Origin: Sphingobium sp. TKS
GTDB lineage: Bacteria; Pseudomonadota; Alphaproteobacteria; Sphingomonadales; Sphingomonadaceae
DNA length: 64,000 nucleotides
NCBI RefSeq assembly: GCF_001563265.1
Contig: NZ_CP005083.1
Location: forward strand, 1,181,001 to 1,245,000
Direction: 5' to 3'
Shown here: one piece after another, positions 35,811 to 53,992 of the stretch
Position numbering within the stretch: the stretch's first letter is position 1
Layout: each line of letters opens with the position of its first letter
Translations under genes and position numbers: made by a program
Notes under the pieces: model-generated
What the model was told of the DNA's origin: nothing
The model's input: the letters and a program-made list of their open reading frames with translations, nothing else
The model's database searches: none

Positions 35811-37355
35811 ATGTCCGTGAGTCGCCCCCCGAGTCTTCCCGCTCTTTCCGGTCGCGCCGGGCTTCTCGCAGGAGGCTTGGCGCTGCTCTCTGCCTGCGCG
35901 GCGGTGCCGGATCTGGGATCCCAGCCGGCGGTGCGCGCGCCTGGCAGCATTGCGGCGGAGCGCAGCCTTCAGGCTGACTATGCCACGCAATGGCCGTCCG
36001 AAGGCTGGTGGACGGCTTATGGCGATCCGCAATTGGATGCGTTGATCGAGGAGGGGCTGAAGGGATCGCCGGACGTGAGCGCTGCCGCCGCCCGCTTCGC
36101 CCAGGCCAACGCGGCCGCGCAGCAGGCGGGGGCGCCGTTGTTGCCGTCGGTCGATCTCGACGCCAATAGTGGCGTGACCAAATCCAGCTACAATATGGGC
36201 ATGCCCAAGGAATTCGTGCCCAAGGGCTGGCTCGGTACGGGCCGGGTGGGCCTGAATTTCGGCTTCGACCTCGATCTTTGGGGCAAGAATCGCGCGGCGC
36301 TGGCGGCGGCGACGTCCGAAGCGCGCGCGGCGGAGATCGACGCGCGGCAGGCGCGGCTGGCGCTGGCGACCGGCGTGGCCGATGCCTACGCCGATCTCGC
36401 CAGGCTCCATGATGAGCGCGACATTCAGGCGCGGGCGCTGGAAATCCGTACCGCCAGCCAGAAGCTGGTGGCGGATCGCCGCGCCAACGGGTTGGAAACG
36501 CGTGGCAGCGAGCGGCAGGCCGATGCTACCGTCTCCTCCGCCAAGGCGCAGCTTGCCGCCGCCGATCAGGCGATCGCGGTGCGCCGGCATCAGATCGCGG
36601 CGCTGATCGGCGCGGGGCCGGATCGGGGCATCGCCATCGCCCGGCCGCAACTCCGCAAGCCCGGTCCGCTGGGTCTGCCCGCCGATGTGACGACCAATCT
36701 GGTCGCCCGCCGTCCGGACATTGCGGCCGCGCTCGCCCGGACCGAGGCGGCGGCCAAGGGGATCAAGGTGGCGCGGGCCGATTTCTTCCCCGCCATCCGC
36801 TTGAGCGCGCTGATCGGCGTGCAGTCGCTGGGCTATCAGACCCTGCTCCAGAACGGCGCTTTTTCCGGCGGGGCCAGTTCCTTTGCGGACACGCTGTTTA
36901 AGAAGGATTCGCTGTTCGGCAATGCCGGGCCCGCGATCAGCCTGCCGATCTTCCATGGGGGTGCGCTGAGCGGCCAATATCGCGGCGCGCGCGCCTTCTA
37001 TGACGAGGCGGTGGCCAGCTATGACAAGACCGTGCTCGGCGCCTATCAGCAAGTGGCCGACGCGGTGACCGGGCGGCGGACGCTCGACCAGCGGCTGATC
37101 GACGCCCGCGCCGCGCTGACCGCATCGGAAGAAGCCTATGGCATCGCCCGCCAGCGTTATGAAGGCGGCCTCAACACCTATCTTGACGTACTGAACGTGG
37201 AAGACCAGCTTCTGGCCGCCCGTCAGACCGTCGCGGAGCTGGAGGCCAGCGCCTTCACGTCCGACATCGCCCTCATTCGCGCGCTGGGCGGCGGCTTTGC
37301 CGCCAGCGACGCCCAAATATCGCACCAGTTGTCCAAGGATATCCCCAATGGCTGA
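35811..37355 (+). CDS. outer-membrane efflux lipoprotein (NodT/TolC type)
   Basis: Outer-membrane channel of a tripartite efflux pump. 514 residues: lipoprotein signal with lipobox LLSAC near residue 31, two OEP domains (first with EGWWTAYGDPQLDALIEEGL and GWLGTGRVGLNFGFDLDLWG, second with LVARRPDIAAALARTEAAAKG and GAYQQVADAVTGRRTLDQRL). The ATG at 35811 is used although the ribosome binding site is poor. Overlaps the next gene by 8 bases. Confidence 0.92.
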   Translation: MSVSRPPSLPALSGRAGLLAGGLALLSACAAVPDLGSQPAVRAPGSIAAERSLQADYATQWPSEGWWTAYGDPQLDALIEEGLKGSPDVSAAAARFAQANAAAQQAGAPLLPSVDLDANSGVTKSSYNMGMPKEFVPKGWLGTGRVGLNFGFDLDLWGKNRAALAAATSEARAAEIDARQARLALATGVADAYADLARLHDERDIQARALEIRTASQKLVADRRANGLETRGSERQADATVSSAKAQLAAADQAIAVRRHQIAALIGAGPDRGIAIARPQLRKPGPLGLPADVTTNLVARRPDIAAALARTEAAAKGIKVARADFFPAIRLSALIGVQSLGYQTLLQNGAFSGGASSFADTLFKKDSLFGNAGPAISLPIFHGGALSGQYRGARAFYDEAVASYDKTVLGAYQQVADAVTGRRTLDQRLIDARAALTASEEAYGIARQRYEGGLNTYLDVLNVEDQLLAARQTVAELEASAFTSDIALIRALGGGFAASDAQISHQLSKDIPNG

Positions 37356-40040: not shown

Positions 40041-40136
40041 GCCCGACCGATGCGCCGTCATGGGCGAGCGTCGCGCATCGCGCCCGATTGACGCGGCGCG
40101 GCATCGCCGTCACTGAGTGGCAAAAAGGTGGGGTCC

Positions 40137-40715
40137 ATGCGAATCGTCATCATCGACGACAGCGGCTTGCGCGCGACAGTCCTGGAAGAAGGCCTGCGCG
40201 AGGCGGGCTATGACGATATTCACATCGTCCCTCCGCGCGGCGGCTTCGTCGCGCGGCTGGAACGCATGGCGCCCGACGTCGTGCTGATGGACCTGGGAAG
40301 CCCCAGCCGCGACACGCTGGAGGAAATGCTGACCGTCAGCCGCGCGCTGGCCCGGCCCATCGCGATGTTCGTCGACCAGTCGGACGAATCCATGATCGGC
40401 GCGGCCATCGACGCAGGCGTGTCGGCCTATGTCGTGGATGGGCTGCGCAAGGAGCGGGTGAAGCCGGTGCTGGAACTGGCGGTGCGGCGCTTCAACGCCT
40501 TCGCCCGGCTGCAGACCGAACTGGACGAGGCGCGCACGGCGCTCTCCGACCGCAAGATCATCGACCGCGCCAAATCCATCCTGATGAGTCAGCGCGGCCT
40601 TTCGGAGCCGGATGCCTATGCGTTGCTGCGGTCGAGCGCGATGAATCAGGGGAAGAAGATCGTGGATGTCGCTCAGGCCCTCATCACGGCCAGCGATCTG
40701 TTGGGAGGGATGTGA
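40137..40715 (+). CDS. nasT: NasT: ANTAR-domain RNA-binding antiterminator
   Basis: Response-regulator-like protein that binds leader RNA and prevents termination upstream of nitrate assimilation genes. 192 residues: pseudo-receiver domain with Asp52 (VVLMDLGSPS) and a C-terminal ANTAR domain about 130-190 (RKIIDRAKSILMSQRGLSEPDAYALLRSSAM). Start 40137 has AGGTGGGG upstream. Stop overlaps the nasS start. In the Paracoccus and Azotobacter systems, NasS sequesters NasT until nitrate or nitrite binds. Two RNA targets are visible downstream (42013 and 43585). Confidence 0.93.
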   Translation: MRIVIIDDSGLRATVLEEGLREAGYDDIHIVPPRGGFVARLERMAPDVVLMDLGSPSRDTLEEMLTVSRALARPIAMFVDQSDESMIGAAIDAGVSAYVVDGLRKERVKPVLELAVRRFNAFARLQTELDEARTALSDRKIIDRAKSILMSQRGLSEPDAYALLRSSAMNQGKKIVDVAQALITASDLLGGM

Positions 40716-41917
40716 TGACGACCGACCTGCGCATCGCTTTCCTGCCGTTGACCGACGCCGCCGTGCTGGCGGTGGCACGGGAAAAGGGTTTCGCGGAAGA
40801 GGAAGGGCTGCATCTCGACCTCGTCCGCACGACGAGCTGGGCGACATTGCGCGACCGGCTGGTGTTCGGGCAGGTGCAGGCGGCGCATATGCTGGCGCCG
40901 CTGGCCGTCGCGGTGACGCTGGGATTGAGCCAGCAGGCGGCGCCGCTTTCCGCGCCCTACAAGCTCAACGTCAACGGCAATATGCTCGTGATGGCGAACG
41001 AGTTCGCGCAGGCGCTGGATCCCGACATATCGGCGCGGCTGGACGATCCGCTGGGCACCGCGCATGATTTCGCGGCGGCCATCGGTTTGTGGAAGCGCAA
41101 GCCGGTGATCGGCGTCGTCCATCGTTATTCCAGCCATTCGATGATGTTGCGCTACTGGCTGGCGAGCGCGGGCGTCGATCCGGATCGCGACGTGGTGCTG
41201 CGCGTCCTGCCGCCGTCGCTTACCGTGGAGGCGATGCGCGCCGGGGAGGTCGATGGGTTCATCGCAGGCGAGCCCTGGGGCAGCGCGGCGGTCGACGCGG
41301 GCCTGGCCGAAGCGGTGGCGATCGGGGAACGCATTTGGCGGCGCGGCGTGGAGAAGGTCCTGGCCTTCCGCACGCCCTGGCTGGATGAAAATCCCGACAG
41401 CGTCGACCGGCTGCTCCGGGCGCTGGTGCGGGCTGCGGCCTGGTGCGACGAGCCGGACCATCATGAGGCGCTCGCCCACCTCTTGTCGCAACCTCATTAT
41501 GTCGACCAGCCCGCCGAGGTGATCCTGCGCGCTCTGTCGGGCGGGATCGTGGCGCGGGTGGACATGGCGCCGCTGTCCATGCCCGATTTCATGCTCTTCT
41601 CGCGCGAGGCCACGCCCTTTCCGTGGCGCAGCCAGGCGCTGTGGATCTATTCGCAGCTCGTTCGCTGGAAGATGGTGGAACATAGCCCGGAAAATGCCGC
41701 CAAGGCCGCGTCGGTCTTCCGCCCGGACATCTTCCGCCGCGCACTGGCCGACAGCGATGTGGCGATGCCGGGGGCCAGCATGAAGGTGGAGGGAGCGGTA
41801 GCCTCTCCGCTGGCAGTGGGATCGAAACGGGGTGAATTGACGCTGGGGCCTGACAGCTTTTTCGATGGGCGGGTGTTCGATCCCGAGCGGATCGAGGATT
41901 TTCTGGCAAGTTTCTAA
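40715..41917 (+). CDS. nasS: NasS: cytoplasmic nitrate/nitrite sensor
   Basis: NrtA-like periplasmic-binding-protein fold without signal peptide, so cytoplasmic; binds nitrate and inhibits NasT when empty. 400 residues: IAFLPLTDAAVLAVAREKGF, RDRLVFGQVQAAHMLAPLA, VEAMRAGEVDGFIAGEPWGSA. There is no ABC transporter partner, which supports the sensor role rather than uptake. GGGAGGGA precedes the ATG, which overlaps the nasT stop by one base. Confidence 0.92.
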   Translation: MTTDLRIAFLPLTDAAVLAVAREKGFAEEEGLHLDLVRTTSWATLRDRLVFGQVQAAHMLAPLAVAVTLGLSQQAAPLSAPYKLNVNGNMLVMANEFAQALDPDISARLDDPLGTAHDFAAAIGLWKRKPVIGVVHRYSSHSMMLRYWLASAGVDPDRDVVLRVLPPSLTVEAMRAGEVDGFIAGEPWGSAAVDAGLAEAVAIGERIWRRGVEKVLAFRTPWLDENPDSVDRLLRALVRAAAWCDEPDHHEALAHLLSQPHYVDQPAEVILRALSGGIVARVDMAPLSMPDFMLFSREATPFPWRSQALWIYSQLVRWKMVEHSPENAAKAASVFRPDIFRRALADSDVAMPGASMKVEGAVASPLAVGSKRGELTLGPDSFFDGRVFDPERIEDFLASF

Positions 41918-42012
41918 AATCCGCCCCAAGCCTTCGGCGCAGGGAGGATTGGATTGGCTTTCGCAAATTTGTGCCTTGCAACATGAGGCGAATCACGAGA
42001 TAAGATAAGAGT

Positions 42013-42137
42013 CGCGCGATGAAGCGCGTTTTCCGGGATGAGCCCTTCCCAAGGCTGGGATCGCGTTCTCCCTACGATTTTACAGCAAAGCCGCTGGCCG
42101 GATTTCGCAAAGAGCGAGGTCCGGACGCGGCTTTTTT
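42013..42137 (+). promoter_or_regulatory. nitrate transporter leader: candidate NasT target hairpins plus terminator
   Basis: Hairpin 1: CGCGC-GATGAA-GCGCG (42013-42028), six-base loop with G at position 4. Hairpin 2: TCCC-AAGGCT-GGGA (42047-42060), loop with A1 and G4 as in ANTAR target RNAs. Then an intrinsic terminator: AAAGCCGC (42087-42094) and CCGGA pair with TCCGG and GCGGCTTT, followed by TTTTTT (ends 42137). It ends 35 bases before the transporter start. Hairpin 1 lacks the A1 and the stem of hairpin 2 is short, so this is less certain than the nirB leader. Confidence 0.6.
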
Positions 42138-42171: not shown

Positions 42172-43431
42172 ATGGCAACTGCTCATTGGGAGAGCCCGGA
42201 AGGGGGCGAAGGGCCAGAAGGTCAGAAACAAACCGGCCAGACCAGTTTCTGGAAGGCTGGGCATACGCCGACCCTGATAGCCGCTTTCCTCTATTTCGAC
42301 CTCGCCTTCATGGTGTGGGTGCTGCTTGGGCCGCTGGCGCCCTCCATCTCCAAGACGCTGGGCCTGACCCCGGCTGAAAAGGGGTTGATGGTCGCCGTGC
42401 CGACGCTGGCGGGGGCCGTGCTGCGCGTCGTCAACGGCCTGCTGGTCGACCGGATCGGCTGCAAGCAGGCGGGCGCAATCAGCCAGGTGATCGTCATCCT
42501 CGGTCTTGCGACGGCGTGGTTCATGGGCGTCAACAGCTTCGGCGGCACGCTGGCGCTGGGCGTGATCCTGGGCTTTGCCGGGGCGAGCTTCGCGATCGCG
42601 CTGCCGCTCGCCAGCCGCTGGTATCCGGCCGAGCATCAGGGCAAGGCCATGGGCCTGGCCGGCATGGGCAATTCCGGCACGGTGCTGGCCTCGCTGTTCG
42701 CGCCGATGCTGGCCAAGCTGTTCGGCTGGAACGCGGTGCTGGGTCTGGCCTGCATTCCGCTGACCATCGTCTTCGTCATCTATATGATCATGGCCAAGAA
42801 CGCGCCCAATGCGCCCGCGCCCAAGAAGCTGGTCGACTATTTCCACCCGCTGAAAAGCGCCGACGCCTGGTGGCTGATGGGCTTTTACTCGGTGACTTTC
42901 GGCGGTTTCGTAGGGCTGGCCGCCTCGCTGCCGATCTACTTCACCGACCAGTTCGGGCTGACCCCGGTGGTTGCCGGCTATTGCACGGCTGGCTGCGTGT
43001 TCGCAGGGTCGCTGGTGCGTCCGATGGGCGGCGCGCTGGCTGACAGGATCGGCGGCGTCAAGGCGCTGATGATGGTCTATATCGCCGCCGCGCTGGCGCT
43101 GTCGGGTGTTGCTTATGCGCCGACGCTGGTCTCCGCCCTTGGCTTCTTCGTCGCCGCGATGCTGGCGCTGGGCGTGGGCAATGGCTCGGTGTTCCAGCTC
43201 GTGCCGCAGCGCTTCAAGGAAGAGATCGGCGTCATGACCGGCCTGGTCGGCATGGCGGGCGGCGTCGGCGGCTTCTACCTGGCATCCTCGCTGGGTATCG
43301 CAAAGCAGCTCACCGGCAGCTTCGCGCCCGGCTTCCTGATCTTCGCGGGTCTGGCCCTGGTCGCGTTCCTTGGCATCTCCCTGGTTCGCGCCCGCTGGCG
43401 CACGACTTGGACCAGCGCTGCCCGCATCTGA
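42172..43431 (+). CDS. nitrate/nitrite transporter (NNP family, MFS)
   Basis: Inner-membrane nitrate importer of the NarK/NasA-permease type. 419 residues, 12 predicted helices. NNP signatures are present: GFAGASFAIALPLASRWYPA in helix 5 and AMLALGVGNGSVFQLVPQRF in helix 11, with GMGNSGTVLASLFAPMLAKL. Start at 42172 is supported by GAGGGA. Upstream lies the leader with a terminator, so expression should require NasT; a separate terminator at 43458 ends this transcript. Confidence 0.94.
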   Translation: MATAHWESPEGGEGPEGQKQTGQTSFWKAGHTPTLIAAFLYFDLAFMVWVLLGPLAPSISKTLGLTPAEKGLMVAVPTLAGAVLRVVNGLLVDRIGCKQAGAISQVIVILGLATAWFMGVNSFGGTLALGVILGFAGASFAIALPLASRWYPAEHQGKAMGLAGMGNSGTVLASLFAPMLAKLFGWNAVLGLACIPLTIVFVIYMIMAKNAPNAPAPKKLVDYFHPLKSADAWWLMGFYSVTFGGFVGLAASLPIYFTDQFGLTPVVAGYCTAGCVFAGSLVRPMGGALADRIGGVKALMMVYIAAALALSGVAYAPTLVSALGFFVAAMLALGVGNGSVFQLVPQRFKEEIGVMTGLVGMAGGVGGFYLASSLGIAKQLTGSFAPGFLIFAGLALVAFLGISLVRARWRTTWTSAARI

Positions 43432-43457: not shown

Positions 43458-43489
43458 GGCGGCGGCCCGCGACAGGCCGCCGCCCTTTT
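43458..43489 (+). terminator. intrinsic terminator of the transporter gene
   Basis: 10-bp perfect stem GGCGGCGGCC (43458-43467) / GGCCGCCGCC (43475-43484), loop CGCGACA, then CTTTTC. Confidence 0.85.
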
Positions 43490-43549
43490 CGCGTTTGCGA
43501 TAAAATGCGGTGGCGCGGAAGCAAAATACATCGTGCTGCGAGGAATCGC

Positions 43550-43577
43550 TTGACCTCGTCGCGATTCGGAATATGCT
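43550..43577 (+). promoter_or_regulatory. sigma-70-type promoter of the nirB leader
   Basis: TTGACC (43550-43555), 16-base spacer, TATGCT (43572-43577). Transcription would start near 43584, directly at the first hairpin of the leader, which supports both the promoter and the leader. Confidence 0.65.
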
Positions 43578-43584
43578 GCAATGC

Positions 43585-43720
43585 AAGGGACAGGGTTGTC
43601 CTTCTTCCATAGCTGCGGTGGTCCAGGGACGGACGATCAAGGCGCTTATGATGGCAAGGCCGCCATCCAGACCTTCGGTTTCAAAGCCGAGGGTCCGGAT
43701 GGCGGCCTTTTTCTTTTTCT
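43585..43720 (+). promoter_or_regulatory. nirB leader: ANTAR (NasT) dual-hexaloop RNA and antiterminated terminator
   Basis: Hairpin 1: GGAC-AGGGTT-GTCC (core 43588-43601, extendable). Hairpin 2: GTCC-AGGGAC-GGAC (43621-43634). Both loops have six bases with A at position 1 and G at position 4, the pattern recognised by ANTAR proteins such as NasT and EutV. A 13-bp terminator stem follows, AAGGCCGCCATCC (43656-43668) with GGATGGCGGCCTT (43697-43709), enclosing a smaller hairpin and ending in TTTTTCTTTTT. ATG of nirB is at 43732. NasT binding would disrupt or preclude the terminator. Confidence 0.82.
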
Positions 43721-43731
43721 GGAGTCAAGGG

Positions 43732-46236
43732 ATGGATTTTCAGAACAACGGACCGGAAGCGGCGAACGAAGAGGACATCTTCGTGCCGTCCGAGGATGTT
43801 CAGGAACATCTGGTTGTCGTGGGCAACGGCATGGCCGGTTGCCGCGCGGTCGAGGAACTGCTGGCGCGCGACAAGGATCGCTATCGCGTCACCATCTTCG
43901 GCGCAGAGCCTTATGTGAACTATAACCGCATCATGCTCTCGCCGGTTCTGGCCGGGGAAAAGAGCTTCGATGACATCATCATCAACAGCCGCGAATGGTA
44001 CTCGGAAAATAATATCGAGCTGATCGCGGGTGATCCGGTGACGGCCATAGACCGCACCGCAAAGACCGTCACGAGCCATTCGGGTCGCACCGTCGGCTAT
44101 GACAAGCTGTTGATCGCCACCGGGTCGGACCCCTTCATCGTCCCGGTTCCGGGGAAGGATCTGCCCGGTGTCATCAGCTTCCGCGACATGAAGGATGTCG
44201 ACACCATGCTGGAGGCCGCCGATAAGGGCGGCAGCGCGGTGGTGATCGGCGGCGGCCTGCTCGGCCTGGAAGCCGCGCACGGCCTGACGTTGCGCGGCAT
44301 GAAGGTGACGGTCATCCACCTCATGGACACGCTGATGGAGCGGCAGCTCGACGAAGCGGCGGGCTGGTTGCTCAAGAGCGCGCTGGAAGGACGGGGCCAG
44401 ACCATCCTGACCGGCGCCAATACCGAAGCCATCTATGGCGACGGCAAGGTCGAGGGCGTGCGCCTTAAGGACGGCACCGAAATCCCGGCGAGCCTGGTGG
44501 TGATGGCGGTGGGCATCCGCCCCTCGACTGCTCTGGCGCGGGAAGCCGGCCTCGACGTCAATCGCGGCATCAAGGTCGACGATCACATGGTGACGAGCGA
44601 CCCCGATGTTCTCGCGGTCGGTGAATGCGTCGAGCATGACGGCAATGTTTACGGCCTCGTCGCGCCGCTTTGGGAAATGTGCCGCAGCCTCGCGGACGGC
44701 CTGACGGATCAGCATACCGGCTACAAGGGCTCGGTCACTTCGACCAAGCTGAAGGTCGCGGGTCTGGACGTTTTCTCCGCCGGTGACTTCTCGGGCGGTG
44801 AGGGCTGCGAGGATATCGTCCTGCGCGACGCTTCGCGCGGCGTGTACAAGCGCGTCGTCGTCAGGGACGATAAGGTCATCGGCGCCGTGCTCTATGGCGA
44901 CACGGCGGACGGCGGCTGGTATTTCGACCTGCTCAAGAAACAGGAAGACGTCGCGGACATCCGCGACCTGCTGATCTTCGGTCAGGCTTTCGCCTCGGGA
45001 GGGGGCGCGCTGGACCCTAAGGCGGCCGTTGCGGCGCTCTCGGACGATGCCGAGATCTGCGGCTGCAACGGCGTCAGCAAGGGCCAGGTCGTCGCCTGCA
45101 TTGCAGCGGGCAATTGCAGCCTCGACGCGGTGCGCGGCACCTGCAAGGCTTCGGCAAGCTGCGGAAGCTGCACGGGGCTGGTCGAAAATCTGCTGGCGGT
45201 GGTGCTGGGCGATGACGTCCAGTCCGGGCCGAAGACGATGTGCAAATGCACCAGCTTCACCCATGATGATGTCCGCCGCGAGATCGTGGCGCAGAATATG
45301 CGCTCCATCCCCGAGGTGATGCAGCTTCTGCACTGGTCGACCCCGGACGGCTGCTCTTCCTGCCGCCCGGCGCTGAACTATTATCTGCTCTGCGCGCTTC
45401 CCGGTGAATATCAGGACGACCAGCAGAGCCGCTTCGTCAATGAGCGCATGCACGCCAATATCCAGAAGGACGGCACCTATTCGGTCGTTCCGCGCATGTG
45501 GGGTGGTCTTACCAACCCGCGTGAATTGCGCGCCATTGCCGATGTGGTCGAGAAATATGATGCGCCGATGGTGAAGGTCACCGGCGGCCAGCGTCTCGAT
45601 ATCTTCGGCATCAAGAAGGAAGATCTGCCCGCCGTCTGGGCCGACCTCAATGCCGCGGGCATGGTGTCGGGTCACGCCTATGGCAAGTCGCTGCGCACGG
45701 TGAAGACCTGCGTGGGGTCCGAATGGTGCCGCTTCGGCACGCAGGACTCCACCGGCCTTGGCGTCAAGATCGAGCGGATGACCTGGGGATCGTGGATGCC
45801 GCACAAGTTCAAGATCGCGGTGTCGGGCTGCCCCCGCAACTGCGCGGAGGCGACGATCAAGGACTTTGGCGTGGTCTGCGTGGACTCGGGTTACGAGCTG
45901 CATGTCGGCGGCAATGGCGGCATCCATGTCCGCGCTACCGACCTCTTGTGCAAGGTCGCGACCGAGCAGGAGGCGATGGACTATTGCGCTGCCTTCACCC
46001 AGCTCTATCGCGAGGAGGCGCGCTATCTGGAGCGCACTGCGCCGTGGATCGAGCGTGTCGGCGTCGACTATATCAAGCAGCGGATCGTGGAAGACGATGC
46101 GGGCCGCGAGGCGCTCCGCAGCCGCTTCCTCTATTCGCAGAGCTTCAGCCAGGATGACCCCTGGGCGCAGCGCGCAGCGGGTGCGGATAGCGAACTGCAC
46201 CAGCCTCTCGCCCCTATCGCCATCGCTGCGGAGTGA
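43732..46236 (+). CDS. nirB: assimilatory nitrite reductase, large subunit
   Basis: NAD(P)H-dependent siroheme enzyme reducing nitrite to ammonium in the cytoplasm. 834 residues in order: FAD/NAD domain (about 22-310; HLVVVGNGMAGCRAVEELL, VVIGGGLLGLEAAHGL), NirB C-domain, two BFD-like 2Fe-2S domains (ICGCNGVSKGQ near 443 and CKCTSFTHDD near 504), and the siroheme/4Fe-4S part with CVGSEWC near 660 and SGCPRNC near 700. Start 43732 has GGAG and AAGGG upstream. Preceded by the NasT leader; followed 5 bases later by nirD. Confidence 0.97.
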   Translation: MDFQNNGPEAANEEDIFVPSEDVQEHLVVVGNGMAGCRAVEELLARDKDRYRVTIFGAEPYVNYNRIMLSPVLAGEKSFDDIIINSREWYSENNIELIAGDPVTAIDRTAKTVTSHSGRTVGYDKLLIATGSDPFIVPVPGKDLPGVISFRDMKDVDTMLEAADKGGSAVVIGGGLLGLEAAHGLTLRGMKVTVIHLMDTLMERQLDEAAGWLLKSALEGRGQTILTGANTEAIYGDGKVEGVRLKDGTEIPASLVVMAVGIRPSTALAREAGLDVNRGIKVDDHMVTSDPDVLAVGECVEHDGNVYGLVAPLWEMCRSLADGLTDQHTGYKGSVTSTKLKVAGLDVFSAGDFSGGEGCEDIVLRDASRGVYKRVVVRDDKVIGAVLYGDTADGGWYFDLLKKQEDVADIRDLLIFGQAFASGGGALDPKAAVAALSDDAEICGCNGVSKGQVVACIAAGNCSLDAVRGTCKASASCGSCTGLVENLLAVVLGDDVQSGPKTMCKCTSFTHDDVRREIVAQNMRSIPEVMQLLHWSTPDGCSSCRPALNYYLLCALPGEYQDDQQSRFVNERMHANIQKDGTYSVVPRMWGGLTNPRELRAIADVVEKYDAPMVKVTGGQRLDIFGIKKEDLPAVWADLNAAGMVSGHAYGKSLRTVKTCVGSEWCRFGTQDSTGLGVKIERMTWGSWMPHKFKIAVSGCPRNCAEATIKDFGVVCVDSGYELHVGGNGGIHVRATDLLCKVATEQEAMDYCAAFTQLYREEARYLERTAPWIERVGVDYIKQRIVEDDAGREALRSRFLYSQSFSQDDPWAQRAAGADSELHQPLAPIAIAAE

Positions 46237-46241
46237 ACGAC

Positions 46242-46577
46242 ATGACCGATTGGATCGACATCGGAACGCTGGCCGACATTCCCCAGCGCGGCGCTCGCAC
46301 GGTTCAGATCGCCGGGGAGAAGGAAATCGCCATATTCCGCACCGGCGACGACCATGTCTTCGCGCTGGTCAACGAATGCCCGCACAAGCAAGGCCCGCTG
46401 AGCCAGGGCATTGTGCACGGCCACAGCGTCGCCTGCCCGCTCCATAATTGGAACATCGCCCTGAAGACGGGCGAGGCGCAGGGCAATGACGAGGGCTGCA
46501 CGCCGACCATCGAGGTCAAACAGGAAGGCGGTCGCATCCTGATCGCCCGCCCGGCCAAGCTCAAGGCGGCAGCATGA
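46242..46577 (+). CDS. nirD: nitrite reductase, small subunit (Rieske)
   Basis: Rieske-type subunit of NirBD. 111 residues; ligands Cys46-x-His48 in NECPHKQGP and Cys65-x2-His68 in VACPLHNW, so a complete 2Fe-2S Rieske site. ATG 46242 is preferred over GTG 46233 from the position of GGAG. Likely co-transcribed with nirB. Confidence 0.94.
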   Translation: MTDWIDIGTLADIPQRGARTVQIAGEKEIAIFRTGDDHVFALVNECPHKQGPLSQGIVHGHSVACPLHNWNIALKTGEAQGNDEGCTPTIEVKQEGGRILIARPAKLKAAA

Positions 46578-46584
46578 GCTTCCG

Positions 46585-46659
46585 GTCCCTGCTCTTGCCG
46601 GCAGGGGCCAGGGTGGAGGGGACGTGCTGTCCATCCCTTGCGGCACGCACCTCCACCCA
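46585..46659 (+). other. two intercistronic hairpins between nirD and nasA
   Basis: Hairpin A: GGTCCCTGC (46585-46593) with GCAGGGGCC (46602-46610), 9 bp. Hairpin B: GGGTGGAGG (46612-46620) with CCTCCACCC (46651-46659), 9 bp, enclosing GTGC/GCAC. Neither has a U-tract, so termination is unlikely; mRNA processing, stability, or differential nirD/nasA expression are possible roles. Confidence 0.55.
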
Positions 46660-46689: not shown

Positions 46690-49299
46690 ATGAATCAGGC
46701 CATCCGCACCACCTGCGCCTATTGCGGCGTCGGCTGCGGCATCTCGGCCACGCCGACCGGCCCGCGGTCGGTCACGATCAAGGGCGATGAGGCGCACCCG
46801 GCCAATGGCGGGCGCCTCTGCTCCAAGGGCACGCATCTGGGCGAGACGGTGGGCCTGACCGGCCGCCTGCTCCACCCGATGATCGGCAACAAGCGAGCGA
46901 GCTGGGACAAGGCATTGGACCTTGTCGCCAAGCGTTTTCGCGAAACCGTCGAGCGCTACGGTCCCGACAGCGTGGCTTTCTACGTCTCCGGCCAGTTGAT
47001 GACCGAAGACTATTATGTCGCCAACAAGCTGATGAAGGGCTTTATCGGCTCGTCCAATATCGACACCAATTCGCGCCTCTGTATGTCCAGCGCGGTCGCC
47101 GGTCACAACCGTGCCTTTGGCGAGGATGTGGTGCCCGCCAGCTATGACGATCTGGAGGAAGCCGACCTGATCGTGCTGGTCGGCTCCAACACCGCCTGGT
47201 GCCACCCCATCGTTTATCAGCGCATCCAGGCGGCCCGTGCCGCGCGTGGCACCAAGCTGGTCGTCATCGACCCGCGCCGTACCGAAACCTGCGAAGGCGC
47301 CGACCTGCACCTCCCGGTGAAACCCGGCACCGACGTCGCGTTGATGAACGGCCTGCTGGCATGGTGCGACGCCGAGGGGATCACCGATCCCGGCTATGTG
47401 GCCGATCATGTCAACGCCCCCGAAGGCTTCTGGGAGCATATCCGCACCGGCCACGATCTCTGGAGCACGGCCAAGACCTGCGACATCGCGCCCGCGCTGC
47501 TGGAGCAATTCTACAAGCTGTTCGCCGCGACTCCGCGCACGGTCACGATGTTCAGCCAGGGCATCAACCAGTCGATCCGCGGCACCGATCAGGTCAATGC
47601 GATCATCAATGTCCACCTCGCCACCGGCCGCATCGGCAAGCCGGGCGCGGTGCCCTTCTCGATCACCGGCCAGCCCAACGCCATGGGCGGGCGCGAGGTG
47701 GGTGGCTTGGCCTCGACGCTGGCCTCGCACATGGACTTCGCGCCGGAAAATGTGGAACGGGTGGGCCGCTTCTGGGCCGCGCCGGCCATGGCGACCAAGC
47801 CGGGCCTGAAAGCCGTCGACCTGTTCCGCGCCATCAACGAAGGCCGGGTCAAGGCGCTGTGGGTGATGGCCACCAACCCCGCCGTGTCGCTGCCCGATGC
47901 TGGCCGCGTGCGCGAGGCGCTGGAGGGCTGCCCCTTCGTCGTGGTGTCGGACATCATGGCCGACACCGATACCGGCGTTCATGCCGATGTTCGCTTGCCC
48001 GCCGCCGGCTGGGGCGAGAAGGACGGTACCGTCACCAATTCGGACCGCACCATCAGCCGCCAGCGGCCCTTCCTCGCGCTGCCCGGCGAGGCCAAGCCCG
48101 ACTGGTGGATCGTCAAGGAAGTCGGCCGCCGCATGGGCTGGCGCAATGCCTTCGCCTATGACCGGCCTGCCGATATCTGGCGCGAACATGCCCGCCTGAC
48201 TGCCTATCAGAATGACGGCCAACGGGTGCTGAACCTGCGTGCCCAGGCGACCATCGGCAATGATGCCTATGACGCCATGGAGCCGTTCCGCTGGGGCGAT
48301 ACGCCCTTCACCGATGGTCGCTTCCCGACGCCCGACGGCAAGGCGCGGCTGGTGTTGACGAAGCAGATGGAGATTCAGGAGCCGCTGAAGCAGTGGCCGA
48401 TGACGCTCAACACCGGCCGTTATCGCGACCAGTGGCACACGATGAGCCGCACCGGGCTTTCACCGAAACTGGCTCGCCATCGCGAGGAACCGCTGGTGGA
48501 AATCCATCCCCAGGACGCCGAAGCGCTGGGCATTGTCGACCACGACCTCGCCCGCGTCCAGACGGCGCAGGGCAACAGCATCTTCCGCGTGAGCCTGAGC
48601 GAAGGCCAGCGCTTGGGGGAAATCTTCACCCCCATTCACTGGACCGATCAGATGTCGAGCGGCGGCCGCACGGGCCTGCTGCCCCGTCCGCTGGTCGATC
48701 CGCATTCGGGCCAGCCCGGCTTCAAATCCACCCCGGCCAGCGTCGAGAAGGTCGCGACCGAGTGGAAGGGCTTCCTGATCCTGCATGGCGATCAACCCGT
48801 CAAATTACCTTGTCTCTGGTCCACCCGCATCACCGTGCCGGGCGGCGCGCTGTACGAGATCGCCGGCAATGGCGACCCCGTGCGGCTTGAGGCCTGCCTG
48901 CCCAAGGGCGACCGCGTCGAAGCCATCGACCAGACGCGTGGCACGCGCCGCATCGCCATCATCAGCGAAGGCCGCCTTGCGGGCGTGCTGTTTGTCACCC
49001 GCACCGGCCTGCTACCCTCGCGCGACTGGCTCATCAGCCAGCTTGAAGTCGAGGGGGTGGGGGCTTCCGTCCTTGCTGCGCGTGGGCCGGGCAATCAGCC
49101 GGACAAGGGGCCGACCGTCTGCGTCTGTTTCGACATCGGCCTTTATCAGATCATGGCGGCGATCCGTGAACAGCAACTGGTCGATGTGCCCGCCATCGGC
49201 AAGGCGATCGGCGCCGGGACCAATTGCGGGTCTTGCCGTCCCGCGCTCGCCAATATCCTTGCTCAAACCACGCAGGAGACGCTCCATGCAGCCGAATGA
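46690..49299 (+). CDS. nasA: assimilatory nitrate reductase, catalytic subunit
   Basis: Cytoplasmic molybdoenzyme reducing nitrate to nitrite. 869 residues: N-terminal 4Fe-4S ligands Cys9, Cys12, Cys16 and Cys44 (CAYCGVGC, RLCSKG), bis-MGD domains (NSRLCMSSAVAGHNRAFGED, VIDPRRTETCEGAD, FSQGINQSIRGTDQVNAIIN), and a C-terminal BFD-like 2Fe-2S domain (VCVCFDIGLY ... GAGTNCGSCRPALA). The extra C-terminal cluster marks the NasA group that takes electrons from an NADH-dependent or ferredoxin partner; no nasB-type gene is in the window. Overlaps cobA by 14 bases. Confidence 0.96.
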   Translation: MNQAIRTTCAYCGVGCGISATPTGPRSVTIKGDEAHPANGGRLCSKGTHLGETVGLTGRLLHPMIGNKRASWDKALDLVAKRFRETVERYGPDSVAFYVSGQLMTEDYYVANKLMKGFIGSSNIDTNSRLCMSSAVAGHNRAFGEDVVPASYDDLEEADLIVLVGSNTAWCHPIVYQRIQAARAARGTKLVVIDPRRTETCEGADLHLPVKPGTDVALMNGLLAWCDAEGITDPGYVADHVNAPEGFWEHIRTGHDLWSTAKTCDIAPALLEQFYKLFAATPRTVTMFSQGINQSIRGTDQVNAIINVHLATGRIGKPGAVPFSITGQPNAMGGREVGGLASTLASHMDFAPENVERVGRFWAAPAMATKPGLKAVDLFRAINEGRVKALWVMATNPAVSLPDAGRVREALEGCPFVVVSDIMADTDTGVHADVRLPAAGWGEKDGTVTNSDRTISRQRPFLALPGEAKPDWWIVKEVGRRMGWRNAFAYDRPADIWREHARLTAYQNDGQRVLNLRAQATIGNDAYDAMEPFRWGDTPFTDGRFPTPDGKARLVLTKQMEIQEPLKQWPMTLNTGRYRDQWHTMSRTGLSPKLARHREEPLVEIHPQDAEALGIVDHDLARVQTAQGNSIFRVSLSEGQRLGEIFTPIHWTDQMSSGGRTGLLPRPLVDPHSGQPGFKSTPASVEKVATEWKGFLILHGDQPVKLPCLWSTRITVPGGALYEIAGNGDPVRLEACLPKGDRVEAIDQTRGTRRIAIISEGRLAGVLFVTRTGLLPSRDWLISQLEVEGVGASVLAARGPGNQPDKGPTVCVCFDIGLYQIMAAIREQQLVDVPAIGKAIGAGTNCGSCRPALANILAQTTQETLHAAE

Positions 49300-50068
49300 A
49301 CTGATCGCCCCCGGTGAGGTCTGGCTGGTCGGCGCAGGCCCCGGCGACCCGGACTTGCTGACCCGCAAGGCCGAAAAGCTGATCGCGGCGGCGGAGATCG
49401 TCTTTTACGATGCGCTGGTGGGGCCGGGCGTGCTGGACCTGATCCCCGAGGGCGTGGAGCGCGTGAGTGTCGGCAAGCGCTCCGGCCGCCATTCGAAAGC
49501 GCAGGAGAGCATCAACGACCTGCTCCTCGCGGCGGCGAAGGCGGGCAAGCGCGTCGTGCGCCTCAAGGGCGGCGACCCGTCGGTCTTCGGCCGCTCGGCG
49601 GAGGAGATGGAGCATCTGGCGGCGGATGGCATTTCTTTCCGCATCTGCCCCGGCATCACCACGGCCAGCGCGGCGGCGGCGAGCGGTCATGCCTCGCTCA
49701 CCCTGCGCGGCGTGGCGCGGGGACTGACGCTGGTGACGGCGCATCTCAAGGCGGGTGAGCCATTGAAGCTGGACTGGGAAATGCTGGCGCGGCCGGGCGG
49801 CACGCTCGGCATCTATATGGGCCGCGCCGCTGCGGGCGAGATCAGCCGCTCGCTGATCGCCGCCGGGCGTGATCCCGAAACGCCGGTGATGGTGGCGGTC
49901 AACGTCTCGCTGCCCAGTGAACGGCTGATCCGGGGCCAGCTGTCGGCGCTGGCCTTCCTGGTGGCGACGATCAGCGATGAAGATCCGACTTTGCTGATGA
50001 TCGGTGAGGCGGTGGCGGGCACTTACTCTTCGGCGGACATGTCGGTGAGTGCTACGCTGACGGTTTGA
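49286..50068 (+). CDS. cobA: uroporphyrinogen-III C-methyltransferase
   Basis: Makes precorrin-2, precursor of siroheme (and of B12 where that pathway exists). 260 residues: AdoMet site WLVGAGPGDPDLLTRKAEKL near residue 15 and VVRLKGGDPSVFGRSAEEME near 92, plus GITTASAAAASGHASLTLRG. The start lies inside nasA (14-base overlap), with AGGAG upstream, so it is translated together with nitrate reductase. This links siroheme supply to nitrite reductase expression. The dehydrogenase/ferrochelatase half is at 32687. Confidence 0.95.
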   Translation: MQPNELIAPGEVWLVGAGPGDPDLLTRKAEKLIAAAEIVFYDALVGPGVLDLIPEGVERVSVGKRSGRHSKAQESINDLLLAAAKAGKRVVRLKGGDPSVFGRSAEEMEHLAADGISFRICPGITTASAAAASGHASLTLRGVARGLTLVTAHLKAGEPLKLDWEMLARPGGTLGIYMGRAAAGEISRSLIAAGRDPETPVMVAVNVSLPSERLIRGQLSALAFLVATISDEDPTLLMIGEAVAGTYSSADMSVSATLTV

Positions 50069-51680: not shown

Positions 51681-51775
51681 GCAATCTCCCTCCGTGGCCG
51701 CCTCTTGGCATGGCCAATGCTTTCCCTTATGGCGCGGGGCGCGGGCGGGGCAAACCCCGTACGCAAAGAAGATCG

Positions 51776-51962
51776 CGCCGGTGCCCGAAAGGGCTGAAAA
51801 CGGGAATGTGGTGCGGACGGGAAACCGTCCTATTCCGCGGCTGTCCCTGCAACTGTAAGCGGTGAGCGCGATGCATTTCGGTCGAACGACCGGCCACTGG
51901 GCGACAAGTCCGGGAAGGCGTGCATCGCTGCATTGACCCGCGAGCCAGGAGACCTGCCGGCG
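51776..51962 (+). promoter_or_regulatory. cobalamin riboswitch upstream of btuB
   Basis: Contains the conserved elements in order: P1 arm CGCCGG (51776-51781), GGGAATGTGGTGCGG, GGCTGTCCCTGCAACTG, GCCACTGGGCGACAAG-type stretch, and the B12 box AGCCAGGAGACCTGCC ending with the P1 partner CCGGCG (51957-51962). It lies about 185 bases before the btuB start; hairpins in between (CCCTGG/CCAGGG near 51975, and a GGGGG...CCCCC pair near 52055-52080) may form the expression platform. Cobalamin would repress btuB. Confidence 0.93.
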
Positions 51963-52147
51963 CATGGTCGCTCTTGCCCTGGCCCAGGGGTTGGCCATGG
52001 CACGGTGTTTTCCGTCTGAGCGACGAAGCGGCGCAGGGCCGCATCGGTGCGGGGGGAGGGCATTGGCGTCGACTTCCCCCAGTTCCGACCGCGCGAGCGG
52101 ATGCCCTGAGCCATGAAGTCGCAGCGGCGCTCAGGGAAACAGATATA

Positions 52148-53992
52148 ATGTTGAAAGCCACCATCTCTCTTGCGGCTCTGCTCGCCGCCACGCCCGCGCT
52201 CGCGGAGGATGAGATCATCGTCACCGCGCTGGGCATCGAGCAGCCCCGCGACGAAGTCGGCCAGGCCGTCACCGTCATCGACGCCGAAACCATCCAAACG
52301 CGCCAGAGCGTGAGCGTCGCAGACCTGCTCGCCACCACGCCCGGCGTCCGCTTCAACCGGGCCGATGCGGTCGGCGGCGTCACCGGCATTTCGCTGCGCG
52401 GCGCGGAAACGACCCAGACGCTGGTGCTGATCGACGGGGTGAAGGTCAACGATCCCAGCAGCATTGGCGATGCCTATGATTTCGGCAATCTGCTGGTCGG
52501 CAACATCCGCCGGATCGAGGTGCTGCGCGGTTCCAACTCGGTGGTCTATGGCAGCCAGGCGATCGGCGGCGTCGTCAACATCATGACCGGCACGCCCGCC
52601 GAAGGATTCGCGGCCAACGCGTCGGTCGATTATGGCTATAGCGATACACTGAATGCCAAGGCGGATGTTTCGGGCACCAGCGGCATCGCATCGGGCGGCC
52701 TTGGCGTCGCCTATTTCCGCACGGACGGCATCTCCGCCGAGGCTGGCGACGCGGAAAAGGACGGTTATGAGAATATCGCCGCCAACGCCAAGTTGAAGCT
52801 CGACTTCAGCGATGCCTTGAGCCTCGACCTGCGCGGCTATTATATCCATGCCGATCTCGACACGGATCTCTTTTCTTTCCCCCCGATAGACCGGACCGCC
52901 ACCAGCACGCTTGATCAATATGTCGGCTATGCTGGCCTGAACCTCAGGCTGTTCGATGGCAAGCTGACCAATCGCGCGGCGGTGACATGGTCCCGCAACG
53001 ATCGCGACTACACCTCCATTTTCGGCCCTTATGGCTATTCGGGCACGAATCTGCGTTTCGAATATGAAGGCGTTTATCAGCCGGTCGAACAGGTGACGCT
53101 GGTGTTCGGCTATGAGCATGAGCGGCCGGACTATGATTTCGCCGGCTTCGGTTCGCATGACCGCGCGAAGATCGACATCGACAGCGTCTATGCCGTCGCC
53201 GTTGTGAAGCCGGTGGAGGGTCTGACGCTGACGGGTGGCGTGCGCCGCGACGACCATAGCCAGTTCGGCGGTGCGACGACCTTTGGCGCCAACGCGAACT
53301 ACACGCCCAATGGCGGCCGCACCAACATCCGCGCCAGCTATGGCGAGGGTTTCAAGGCGCCCTCGCTCTATCAGCTTTACGATCCCTTTGTCGGCAATAG
53401 CGGGCTGCGCCCGGAACGGTCCAAGAGCTATGATATCGGCTTCGACCAGAAGCTGGCCGGGGATCGTGCTATCTTCTCCGTCACCGCCTTCCGCCGCGAT
53501 ACGCGTGACCAGATCGACTTTGACGGCGCCTTTGGAGCATTTGGCGGCTATAACAATCTCGATCGCACCCGCGCCAAGGGAGTGGAAGCGTCCTTCGCGC
53601 TGAAGCCGGTCGACGCGCTGACCGTCACGGCATCCTACAGCTATGTCGATGCGCGCAACCGCTCGCCGGGCAGCCCGGACGAAGGCCTGCGTCTGCTGCG
53701 CCGGGCGCCCAATGCGGCCAGTGTGTCGGCGGACTATGTCTGGCCTTTCGGCCTGTCGACCGGCGCAACGATCACGATGGTGGATGACAGCGTCGATATC
53801 GATTCCAGCACGCATAAGCGTGTCCAGCTCGACGGCTTTGCGCTGGTTGGCGTTCGCGCGTCCTTCCCGATCAATGAGCATCTGGAAGTCTATGGCCGCA
53901 TCGACAATCTGTTCGATGAAGGATACGCCACGGCTTATGGCTATGGCACCTATGGCCGGTCGGCCTTTGGCGGCGTGCGTGTCCGCTTCTGA
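52148..53992 (+). CDS. btuB: BtuB-type TonB-dependent vitamin B12 receptor
   Basis: Outer-membrane receptor, 614 residues, the BtuB length. Signal peptide about 1-19 (LKATISLAALLAATPALA), EIIVTALG near the N-terminus as TonB-box region, plug domain (VADLLATTPGVRFN, LIDGVKVNDPSSIGD, IRRIEVLRGSNSVVYGSQAI), barrel ending GGVRVRF. Control by the cobalamin riboswitch and the neighbouring btuFCD genes support B12 as substrate. Start 52148 has AGGGAAAC upstream. Confidence 0.94.
   Translation: MLKATISLAALLAATPALAEDEIIVTALGIEQPRDEVGQAVTVIDAETIQTRQSVSVADLLATTPGVRFNRADAVGGVTGISLRGAETTQTLVLIDGVKVNDPSSIGDAYDFGNLLVGNIRRIEVLRGSNSVVYGSQAIGGVVNIMTGTPAEGFAANASVDYGYSDTLNAKADVSGTSGIASGGLGVAYFRTDGISAEAGDAEKDGYENIAANAKLKLDFSDALSLDLRGYYIHADLDTDLFSFPPIDRTATSTLDQYVGYAGLNLRLFDGKLTNRAAVTWSRNDRDYTSIFGPYGYSGTNLRFEYEGVYQPVEQVTLVFGYEHERPDYDFAGFGSHDRAKIDIDSVYAVAVVKPVEGLTLTGGVRRDDHSQFGGATTFGANANYTPNGGRTNIRASYGEGFKAPSLYQLYDPFVGNSGLRPERSKSYDIGFDQKLAGDRAIFSVTAFRRDTRDQIDFDGAFGAFGGYNNLDRTRAKGVEASFALKPVDALTVTASYSYVDARNRSPGSPDEGLRLLRRAPNAASVSADYVWPFGLSTGATITMVDDSVDIDSSTHKRVQLDGFALVGVRASFPINEHLEVYGRIDNLFDEGYATAYGYGTYGRSAFGGVRVRF

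Follow-up and report, generated by a model that had tools for sequence, protein, structure and literature searches.

The leader of nirB in Sphingobium sp. TKS (genome size 6.2 Mb) carries three hexaloop hairpins and very probably acts as a switch by which NasT controls transcription antitermination, and a leader of like build precedes nrtP in the same locus. This reading was drawn from the sequence and predicted structures of a window of 64,000 nucleotides, the whole stretch of DNA that was analysed, and of related loci. A sequence-only reading of the window had identified the region before nirB as a NasT (ANTAR) antitermination RNA with two hairpins. The identification was supported by comparison, because the stems covaried, the G at loop position 4 (G4) was invariant, the loops were closed by a C-G pair, the distance from promoter to hairpin was constant, a terminator was found that excludes one of the hairpins, and the sole ANTAR gene detected lay in the locus and kept the G4-contact residues. 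The two-hairpin anatomy had to be extended, as a third hairpin with A at loop position 1 (A1) and G4 reaches the terminator.

By family matches, the genes of the locus were ordered as follows.

40128..40715, + strand: nasT, receiver plus ANTAR domain
40712..41917, + strand: nasS, nitrate-binding-protein-like (NrtA/CmpC type), adjoining nasT
42172..43431, + strand: nrtP-type MFS nitrate/nitrite transporter gene, start likely at 42172 and not at 42019 as in the ORF list
43732..46236, + strand: nirB (TIGR02374, 949 bits), the first gene after leader 2
46233..46577, + strand: nirD (TIGR02378, 95.6 bits)
46690..49299, + strand: gene of a nasA-type molybdopterin nitrate reductase, family scores under the NasA/NasC equivalog cut-offs
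49286..50068, + strand: cobA, uroporphyrinogen-III C-methyltransferase (NF004790 and TIGR01469 above cut-off), likely start ATG 49286

The nasT gene was the only ANTAR match detected across the genome, and the NirB protein of the window was 96% identical to that of Sphingobium chungbukense over the best segment. The nrtP start at 42172 was judged likelier than 42019 because the reading frame from 42019 runs through the nrtP leader. A terminator-like hairpin 3' of nrtP (43458-43489) was noticed by eye and was absent from the terminator scan output. Since this hairpin stands behind nrtP and each leader has its own promoter, the leaders of nrtP (leader 1) and nirB (leader 2) seem to serve two units. 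The earlier proposal of NasT control over nirBD-nasA-cobA as a single unit may hold but is incomplete, since nrtP carries a leader of the same build. No further leader was detected by the structural scan between nirD and nasA. By eye, this gap contained two hairpins lacking a T-run, at 46587-46606 and 46611-46658, the second formed by GGGTGGAGG/CCTCCACCC; they are perhaps a processing or stability element within the operon. Elsewhere in the window, a cobalamin riboswitch (51762-51975; Rfam RF00174, 111.8 bits) was found at the beginning of the gene for a TonB-dependent receptor (51920-53992), and an 'ffh' sRNA match at 2924-2976 scored 35.1 bits, barely at the gathering score of 35.

The nirB leader contained the following elements.

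43550..43577, + strand: promoter TTGACC-N16-TATGCT, 9/12 consensus positions
43586..43603, + strand: P1 hexaloop hairpin AGGGAC-AGGGTT-GTCCTT, 6 pairs, loop AGGGTT at 43592-43597
43617..43638, + strand: P2 hexaloop hairpin GTCC-AGGGAC-GGAC, loop AGGGAC at 43625-43630
43650..43667, + strand: P3 hexaloop hairpin GATGGC-AAGGCC-GCCATC, loop AAGGCC at 43656-43661
43656..43709, + strand: intrinsic terminator with a 13-bp outer stem, followed by a U-rich tract that reaches about 43720, -46.4 kcal/mol alone

The promoter at the transcript start, the P1 and P2 loops with their A1 and G4, and the 13-bp terminator with its U-rich tract all lay where the sequence-only reading had placed them. P3, which that reading had overlooked, was found by scanning for A1/G4 hexaloops, so that all three hexaloops of the window leader carry A1 and G4. 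The stem of P2 consists of 4 contiguous pairs, a G.G mismatch and 3 further pairs, and the linkers are 13 nt (P1-P2) and 11 nt (P2-P3). The promoter position puts the nirB transcript +1 near 43584. A permissive promoter pattern (TTG[AC]NN, 16-18 nt, [TC]ATNNT) was present in 46/46 leaders tested, with TTGA/TAT in 44, and the distance from the end of the -10 element to loop 1 was 14-15 nt in the same 46/46. An inverted repeat, GAATCGC-N11-GCGATTC (43543-43567), spans the -35 element of the nirB promoter and had no other exact match genome-wide; among 46 relatives, perfect inverted repeats with 7- or 8-base arms lay upstream in 32, repeats with shorter arms in 11 and none in 3. The repeat may serve a DNA-binding regulator as its operator.

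The folding energy of the whole nirB leader was -74.8 kcal/mol, compared with -51.1 +/- 4.0 kcal/mol for 200 shuffles (z -5.86). The P1-P2 segment alone gave a z of only -0.96, and 37/200 shuffles were equally stable; its folding energy was rejected as proof of the two hairpins, and the case for P1 and P2 was therefore taken from comparison. No Rfam family reached its gathering score in the nirB leader. Sub-threshold Rfam matches (among them a miRNA family, E 0.0005, and Atu_Ti1, E 0.031) were set aside as far under their gathering scores and as mostly tracking the terminator hairpin.

The terminator is formed by 13 pairs between AAGGCCGCCATCC (43656-43668) and GGATGGCGGCCTT (43697-43709), and its 5' arm is made up of the P3 loop and the 3' arm of P3. 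P3 and the terminator are therefore mutually exclusive. Partition-function folding of the growing transcript showed that the mean pair probability of P3 was about 0.98 up to 43696, 0.69 at 43700 and 0 from 43704. P1 and P2 lie outside the terminator in both leaders, so these two hairpins alone explain no antitermination. P3 is likely the antiterminator of the nirB leader, a modelled role that fits the eut leaders, where the antiterminator is described as placed within the terminator (PMC3369931, PMC8934654).

A second three-hairpin leader with a terminator, also overlooked by the sequence-only reading, was found upstream of nrtP at 42013-42137.

42013..42028, + strand: P1', CGCGC-GATGAA-GCGCG
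42047..42060, + strand: P2', TCCC-AAGGCT-GGGA
42083..42096, + strand: P3', CAGC-AAAGCC-GCTG, overlapping the terminator 5' arm
42087..42137, + strand: terminator of leader 1, with the T-run TTTTTT at 42132-42137

The fold of leader 1 gave a z of -3.50 against shuffles. By eye, a promoter TTGCAA-N17-GATAAG was seen at 41976-42004, which again puts the first hairpin, P1', at the transcript start. The leader-1 alignment comprised 39/49 listed sequences, 2 near-duplicates and 8 diverged leaders (L048, L049, L059, L060, L062, L065, L069, L078) being omitted. In these 39 sequences G4 was present in 39/39 of each of the three loops, and A1 in 37/39 of P2' and 39/39 of P3'; loop position 1 of P1' was G in 36/39 (GACGAA type), a recurrent exception to the A1 rule. 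The covariation score of P1' and P2' was reached by 0/500 shuffles, and 4/4 pairs of the P3' stem were invariant.

Covariation in the nirB leader was analyzed in an alignment of 44 rows, that is, the window and 43 of the best 80 of 481 nirB relatives. Pairs altered on both sides numbered 5/7 in P1 and 7/8 in P2. The P1/P2 covariation score was 0.286, compared with 0.165 +/- 0.009 for shuffled alignments, 0/500 of which scored as high, and sliding the partners abolished it; stem covariation in relatives, a test set beforehand that could have refuted the proposal, was thus found for P1 and P2. In the P3 stem, 5/6 pairs never varied, so covariation hardly probes P3. One pair of the terminator was AU in 22, GC in 20 and GU in 2 of the 44 leaders. 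G4 was present in 44/44 of P1, P2 and P3, with positions 2, 3 and 5 of the P1 and P2 loops varying, and the loop-closing C-G pair in 44/44 of both P1 and P2. A1 was present in 32/44 of P1, 40/44 of P2 and 44/44 of P3; the P3 loop was AAGGCC in 22 leaders and AAAGCC in the other 22.

The comparison was extended to all of the best 80 of 481 nirB loci, which included metagenome bins and several loci of a single assembly (three of S. lactosutens DS20); they held 78 distinct P1-P3 sequences, mostly of close relatives, and so are not 80 independent trials. P3 plus terminator was present in 80/80 loci (75 by regular expression; L049, L062, L065, L069 and L071 found separately), within 260 nt before nirB in 51/80 and behind nasS in 29, of which 28 were before nrtP; in the remaining one, L079, no nrtP match was found. 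The idea that some Sphingomonas loci are leaderless was rejected, since the leader sits behind nasS there. The leader-1 P3 motif was also present in 48/48 assessable loci having the leader before nirB, that is, the 51 minus L013 and L022 (cut before the leader-1 site) and L043 (no nrtP match).

All three hairpins recurred in the 80 loci and the window. With a single leader counted for each locus, the window added, and P1 of L040 excluded for its 5-base loop, G4 was present in 80/80 of P1, 81/81 of P2 and 81/81 of P3, and A1 in 64/80, 72/81 and 81/81, respectively. The closing C-G pair was present in 55/59, 61/61 and 21/21 distinct sequences of P1, P2 and P3. For 13 leaders these hairpins were assigned by alignment position, the automatic pick having mostly taken the promoter palindrome as P1; one of two possible registers was counted for P2 of L063, and an alignment in which L062, L065 and L069 were out of register at P1 was discarded. 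Across leader types the P3 stems were compensated (GATGGC/GCCATC; CAGC/GCTG; GACAGC/GCTGTC in L065), and many Sphingopyxis leaders had a P3 of merely 3 pairs. The P3 loop was AATGAA, AACGAA or AATGAC in Sphingopyxis and many Sphingomonas, where A1-G4 lies outside the Watson-Crick stem of the terminator; A1 and G4 of P3 are therefore not kept by the terminator.

The P1-P2 loop distance was 33-37 nt in 76/80 leaders, and the P2-P3 loop distance was 31-32 nt in 50 leaders and 45-60 nt in 31. The mean P2-P3 linker was 14.0 nt in the short class and 38.2 nt in the long class (31/81 leaders), and in minimum-energy folds the linker bases outside predicted helices had the same mean of 10.1 in the two classes, with ranges of 4-15 and 1-16. 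Long linkers folded better than shuffles that preserve single-base composition only (mean z -1.69 vs 0.04 for short linkers). In this structural model, a helix inserted in the long linkers reads as keeping P2 and P3 near each other.

These data also bear on a reading in which NasT uses only the canonical dual motif, binding P2 and P3 as EutV binds its two hairpins, with P1 merely structuring or protecting the 5' end. The two-hairpin motif is the described ANTAR motif, NasT systems included (PMC3369931, PMC7496416), several other nasT leaders have two hairpins, and the short-class P2-P3 spacing is near that of P1-P2. However, G4 of P1 was kept throughout even though its loop changes freely at positions 3 and 5, the P1 stem covaried, and P1 was found in all 81 leaders counted (L040 as the 5-base loop) and in 39/39 of leader 1, so that a role for P2 and P3 only was considered rather unlikely.

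A reading that would add to antitermination is that the terminated short leader serves as a NasT sponge. P1 and P2, being clear of the terminator, would survive in it as a dual-hexaloop site, unlike in two-hexaloop leaders, and sequestration of EutV by EutX RNA has been discussed (PMC8934654). The extra hairpin may, on the other hand, serve recruitment only, and we consider a sponge function unlikely. It is more doubtful still that P1-P2 is the NasT site and P3 a mere by-product of the terminator, with NasT acting otherwise, for example by contacting RNA polymerase. The nearly constant P1-P2 spacing beside a P2-P3 spacing of 31-60 nt and the small variation of P3 would agree with this. Against it, A1 and G4 were kept in P3 even outside the Watson-Crick stem of the terminator, the mean unpaired linker length was equal in both classes, as a need for proximity of P2 and P3 would predict, and the second hairpin of eut leaders is described as overlapping the terminator (PMC7496416, PMC8934654). 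It is highly improbable that the region is simply a constitutive promoter with a terminator, or another attenuation device (leader peptide, riboswitch or translation), unrelated to NasT. Open reading frames with starts at 43510 and 43581 do cross the leader, but its conserved hexaloops and their closing C-G pairs are of ANTAR type, no Rfam family matched at its gathering score, and the spacing between loop 1 and nirB did not keep frame (24, 16 and 11 of 51 loci), which argues against a translated leader fused to nirB.

The specificity of the leader structure was examined using a structural scanner, tuned on these leaders, that requires an A..G hexaloop overlapping a terminator and upstream [AG]..G hexaloops and is otherwise sequence-blind. 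It gave 124 hits in the window and the 80 loci (107 triple, 15 dual and 2 single), 0 hits on their antisense strand, and 1 single, 0 dual and 0 triple hits in 6.19 Mb of first-order Markov sequence, a control that is not an exact shuffle. Of the 122 hits outside the window, 71 were within 250 nt before nrtP, 50 before nirB and 1 (L079) behind nasS. The 2 single hits were leader 1 of L059 and of L060, where P1 and P2 fall below the scanner's stem rule; the scanner found nothing in L046 and L068 and one of the two leaders only in L023, L024, L057 and L060. The genome was also searched with covariance models of leader 2 (R1) and leader 1 (R2), which scored 150/4628 and 150/7019 first-look candidates, respectively, so that diverged leaders may be missed. 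R1 scored 90.7 bits at its window site (next match 22.8 bits) and R2 84.8 bits (next 18.9 bits). Leader 1 scored 16.5 bits with R1 in the window and was unlisted in the R1 genome search; a weak R1 match of 22.3 bits lay at 37286-37350 of the window. The regulon detected by R1 and R2 in this genome consists of two leaders, both in the nas locus.

Among 59 genomes of the family (own genome included, strict filters), 25 were ANTAR-positive. At E<=1e-3, R1 matched 7/59, all ANTAR-positive, and missed 18/25 of the ANTAR-bearing genomes; at E<=0.1 it matched 20/59, 4 of them without an ANTAR gene. A wider survey covered 60 ANTAR/nasT loci, from 20 of 23 positive genomes of the class and 40 of 77 positive genomes of the phylum. 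A same-strand dual or triple leader was found in 22 of these loci and none in 38, and one dual leader lay on the opposite strand; L109 had no dual or triple hit on either strand. The triples were L095, L098 and L102, from other alphaproteobacterial loci, and the same-family L104, and L137 was scored as dual merely because its P1 closes with U-G. In a relaxed scan, 8 of 20 loci outside the class had a same-strand candidate, and 6 of these 8 showed a pair of hexaloops spaced 20-27 nt apart. An exclusive link of three hexaloops with sphingomonads was made less likely by the triples L095, L098 and L102 and by L135 and L136, of the same family, which had two hexaloops only. Three hexaloops recur in the nas leaders of the examined sphingomonad nirB loci, and they are neither unique to the family nor universal in it. 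Further observations were made in this survey. By eye, L093, L143 and L156 possibly had three hexaloops and were left uncounted. In other proteobacteria, relaxed scans gave several leader candidates near a single nasT locus, three in L155 (8401, 4904 and 1584) and two in L103 (4589 and 3060). In L101 and L107, A1/G4 hexaloops lay within 480 nt behind nasS with no T-run after them, and perhaps serve translation control.

NasT of the window was aligned with EutV (6wsh), EutV residue numbers being taken as chain index minus 2, as inferred from the sequence letters. Of 11 RNA-contact residues, 8 were identical (R142, K143, K149, E160, Y164, R168, M172 and N173), and the substitutions were K147 to R, R177 to K and R175 to G. 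The four EutV residues that hold G4 (R142, K149, E160 and Y164) were all kept. In the EutV structure as described, G4 stacks on Tyr164 and A1 has no specific contact (PMC8934654), which fits the A-to-G changes at A1 seen here.

The probable mechanism can be outlined. Transcription would begin at P1. Without nitrate, NasS would hold NasT, P1 and P2 would fold, and P3 would form briefly; as soon as RNA polymerase has made its 3' arm, the terminator would displace P3 and transcription would stop before nirB. With nitrate or nitrite, NasS would release NasT, and NasT dimers would bind the hexaloops through G4, P1 and P2 acting as recruitment hairpins and P3 as the antitermination hairpin. NasT holding P3 as RNA polymerase passes would allow transcription of nirBD and probably nasA-cobA, and leader 1 would act as the same switch for nrtP. 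The release of NasT from NasS and its binding to the leader are inferred from Paracoccus, where NasT is reported to bind the nasA leader and nitrate to dissociate NasS-NasT (PMC3795266), and the order of recruitment before antitermination follows EutV, for which a successive-binding model has been proposed in which an ANTAR dimer apparently occupies a single loop at any moment (PMC8934654). P1 may contribute as a second recruitment hairpin, through stoichiometry, or as a decoy after termination. Several findings weigh against this three-hexaloop NasT switch: A1 was not universal in P1 and P2 and was mostly G in P1', NasT has Gly at the position of EutV Arg175, the P3 stem hardly varied in either leader type, R1 missed most ANTAR-bearing genomes at the stricter threshold, the scanner was tuned on the leaders themselves, and L135 and L136 had two hexaloops. 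More speculatively, the sphingomonad leaders might form a three-hexaloop ANTAR class in which all three hairpins, two for recruitment and one for antitermination, are NasT-bound and natural spacer helices keep P2 and P3 in reach; since P1 and P2 outlast termination, each terminated leader would still be a full NasT-binding RNA, and the two leaders would compete for and buffer NasT when nitrate is scarce.

By this analysis, nitrate assimilation in sphingomonads is likely controlled by NasT antitermination at two leaders, which form a natural collection of three-hexaloop ANTAR RNAs. They allow a direct test of why several hexaloops are required in ANTAR systems if a dimer seems to bind single loops, as the EutV work proposes (PMC8934654). 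They also bear on the loop rules, G4 being kept throughout and loop position 1 of the first hairpin frequently being G, in agreement with contact to G4 and not A1 in that structure (PMC8934654). The longer linkers that accompany a predicted helix offer a ready test of distance vs linear length; the accepted hexaloop linker is given as 2-25 nt (PMC8164766), a range that takes in both linkers of the window, and that of E. faecalis eut as 5-12 nt (PMC3369931).

Judged from sequence, the leaders would belong to a known kind, NasT-NasS ANTAR antitermination; the three-hexaloop build and the presence of two leaders in one locus were not found described in the papers searched. Among these, none on three-hexaloop ANTAR leaders or sphingomonad nas leaders stood out, and the supplementary lists of predicted ANTAR RNAs in PMC3369931 may already include single sphingomonad leaders. 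The nasA leader of Paracoccus denitrificans is described with a like arrangement, nasT-nasS lying upstream and hairpins between nasS and the structural genes; there, hairpin HI is needed for expression and HII is thought to attenuate (PMC3795266, PMC5424462). By this description it is set apart by having HI and HII in one leader, whereas three hexaloops and two leaders were found here. In Bradyrhizobium diazoefficiens, another alphaproteobacterium, NasT antitermination of nitrogen-oxide genes and NasT-interaction hairpins in the leaders are reported, but the targets include denitrification genes (PMC6759348), whereas both leaders found here lie within the nas locus. Klebsiella oxytoca NasR/nasF is likewise described as nitrate-triggered ANTAR antitermination of assimilation genes, and the NasR SELEX consensus (closing C:G, A1, G4) matches the positions conserved here; in contrast, NasR itself senses nitrate and its leader has two hairpins (PMC7496416). 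Enterococcus faecalis EutV/eutP, as described, shares with the present leaders the A1/G4 hexaloops, the last of them inside the terminator 5' arm, and with NasT the G4-contact residues (PMC3369931, PMC8934654). It differs in having two hexaloops and a phosphorylation signal, whereas the sphingomonad leaders have three hexaloops, a presumed NasS sensor, and an A1 that is often G in P1.
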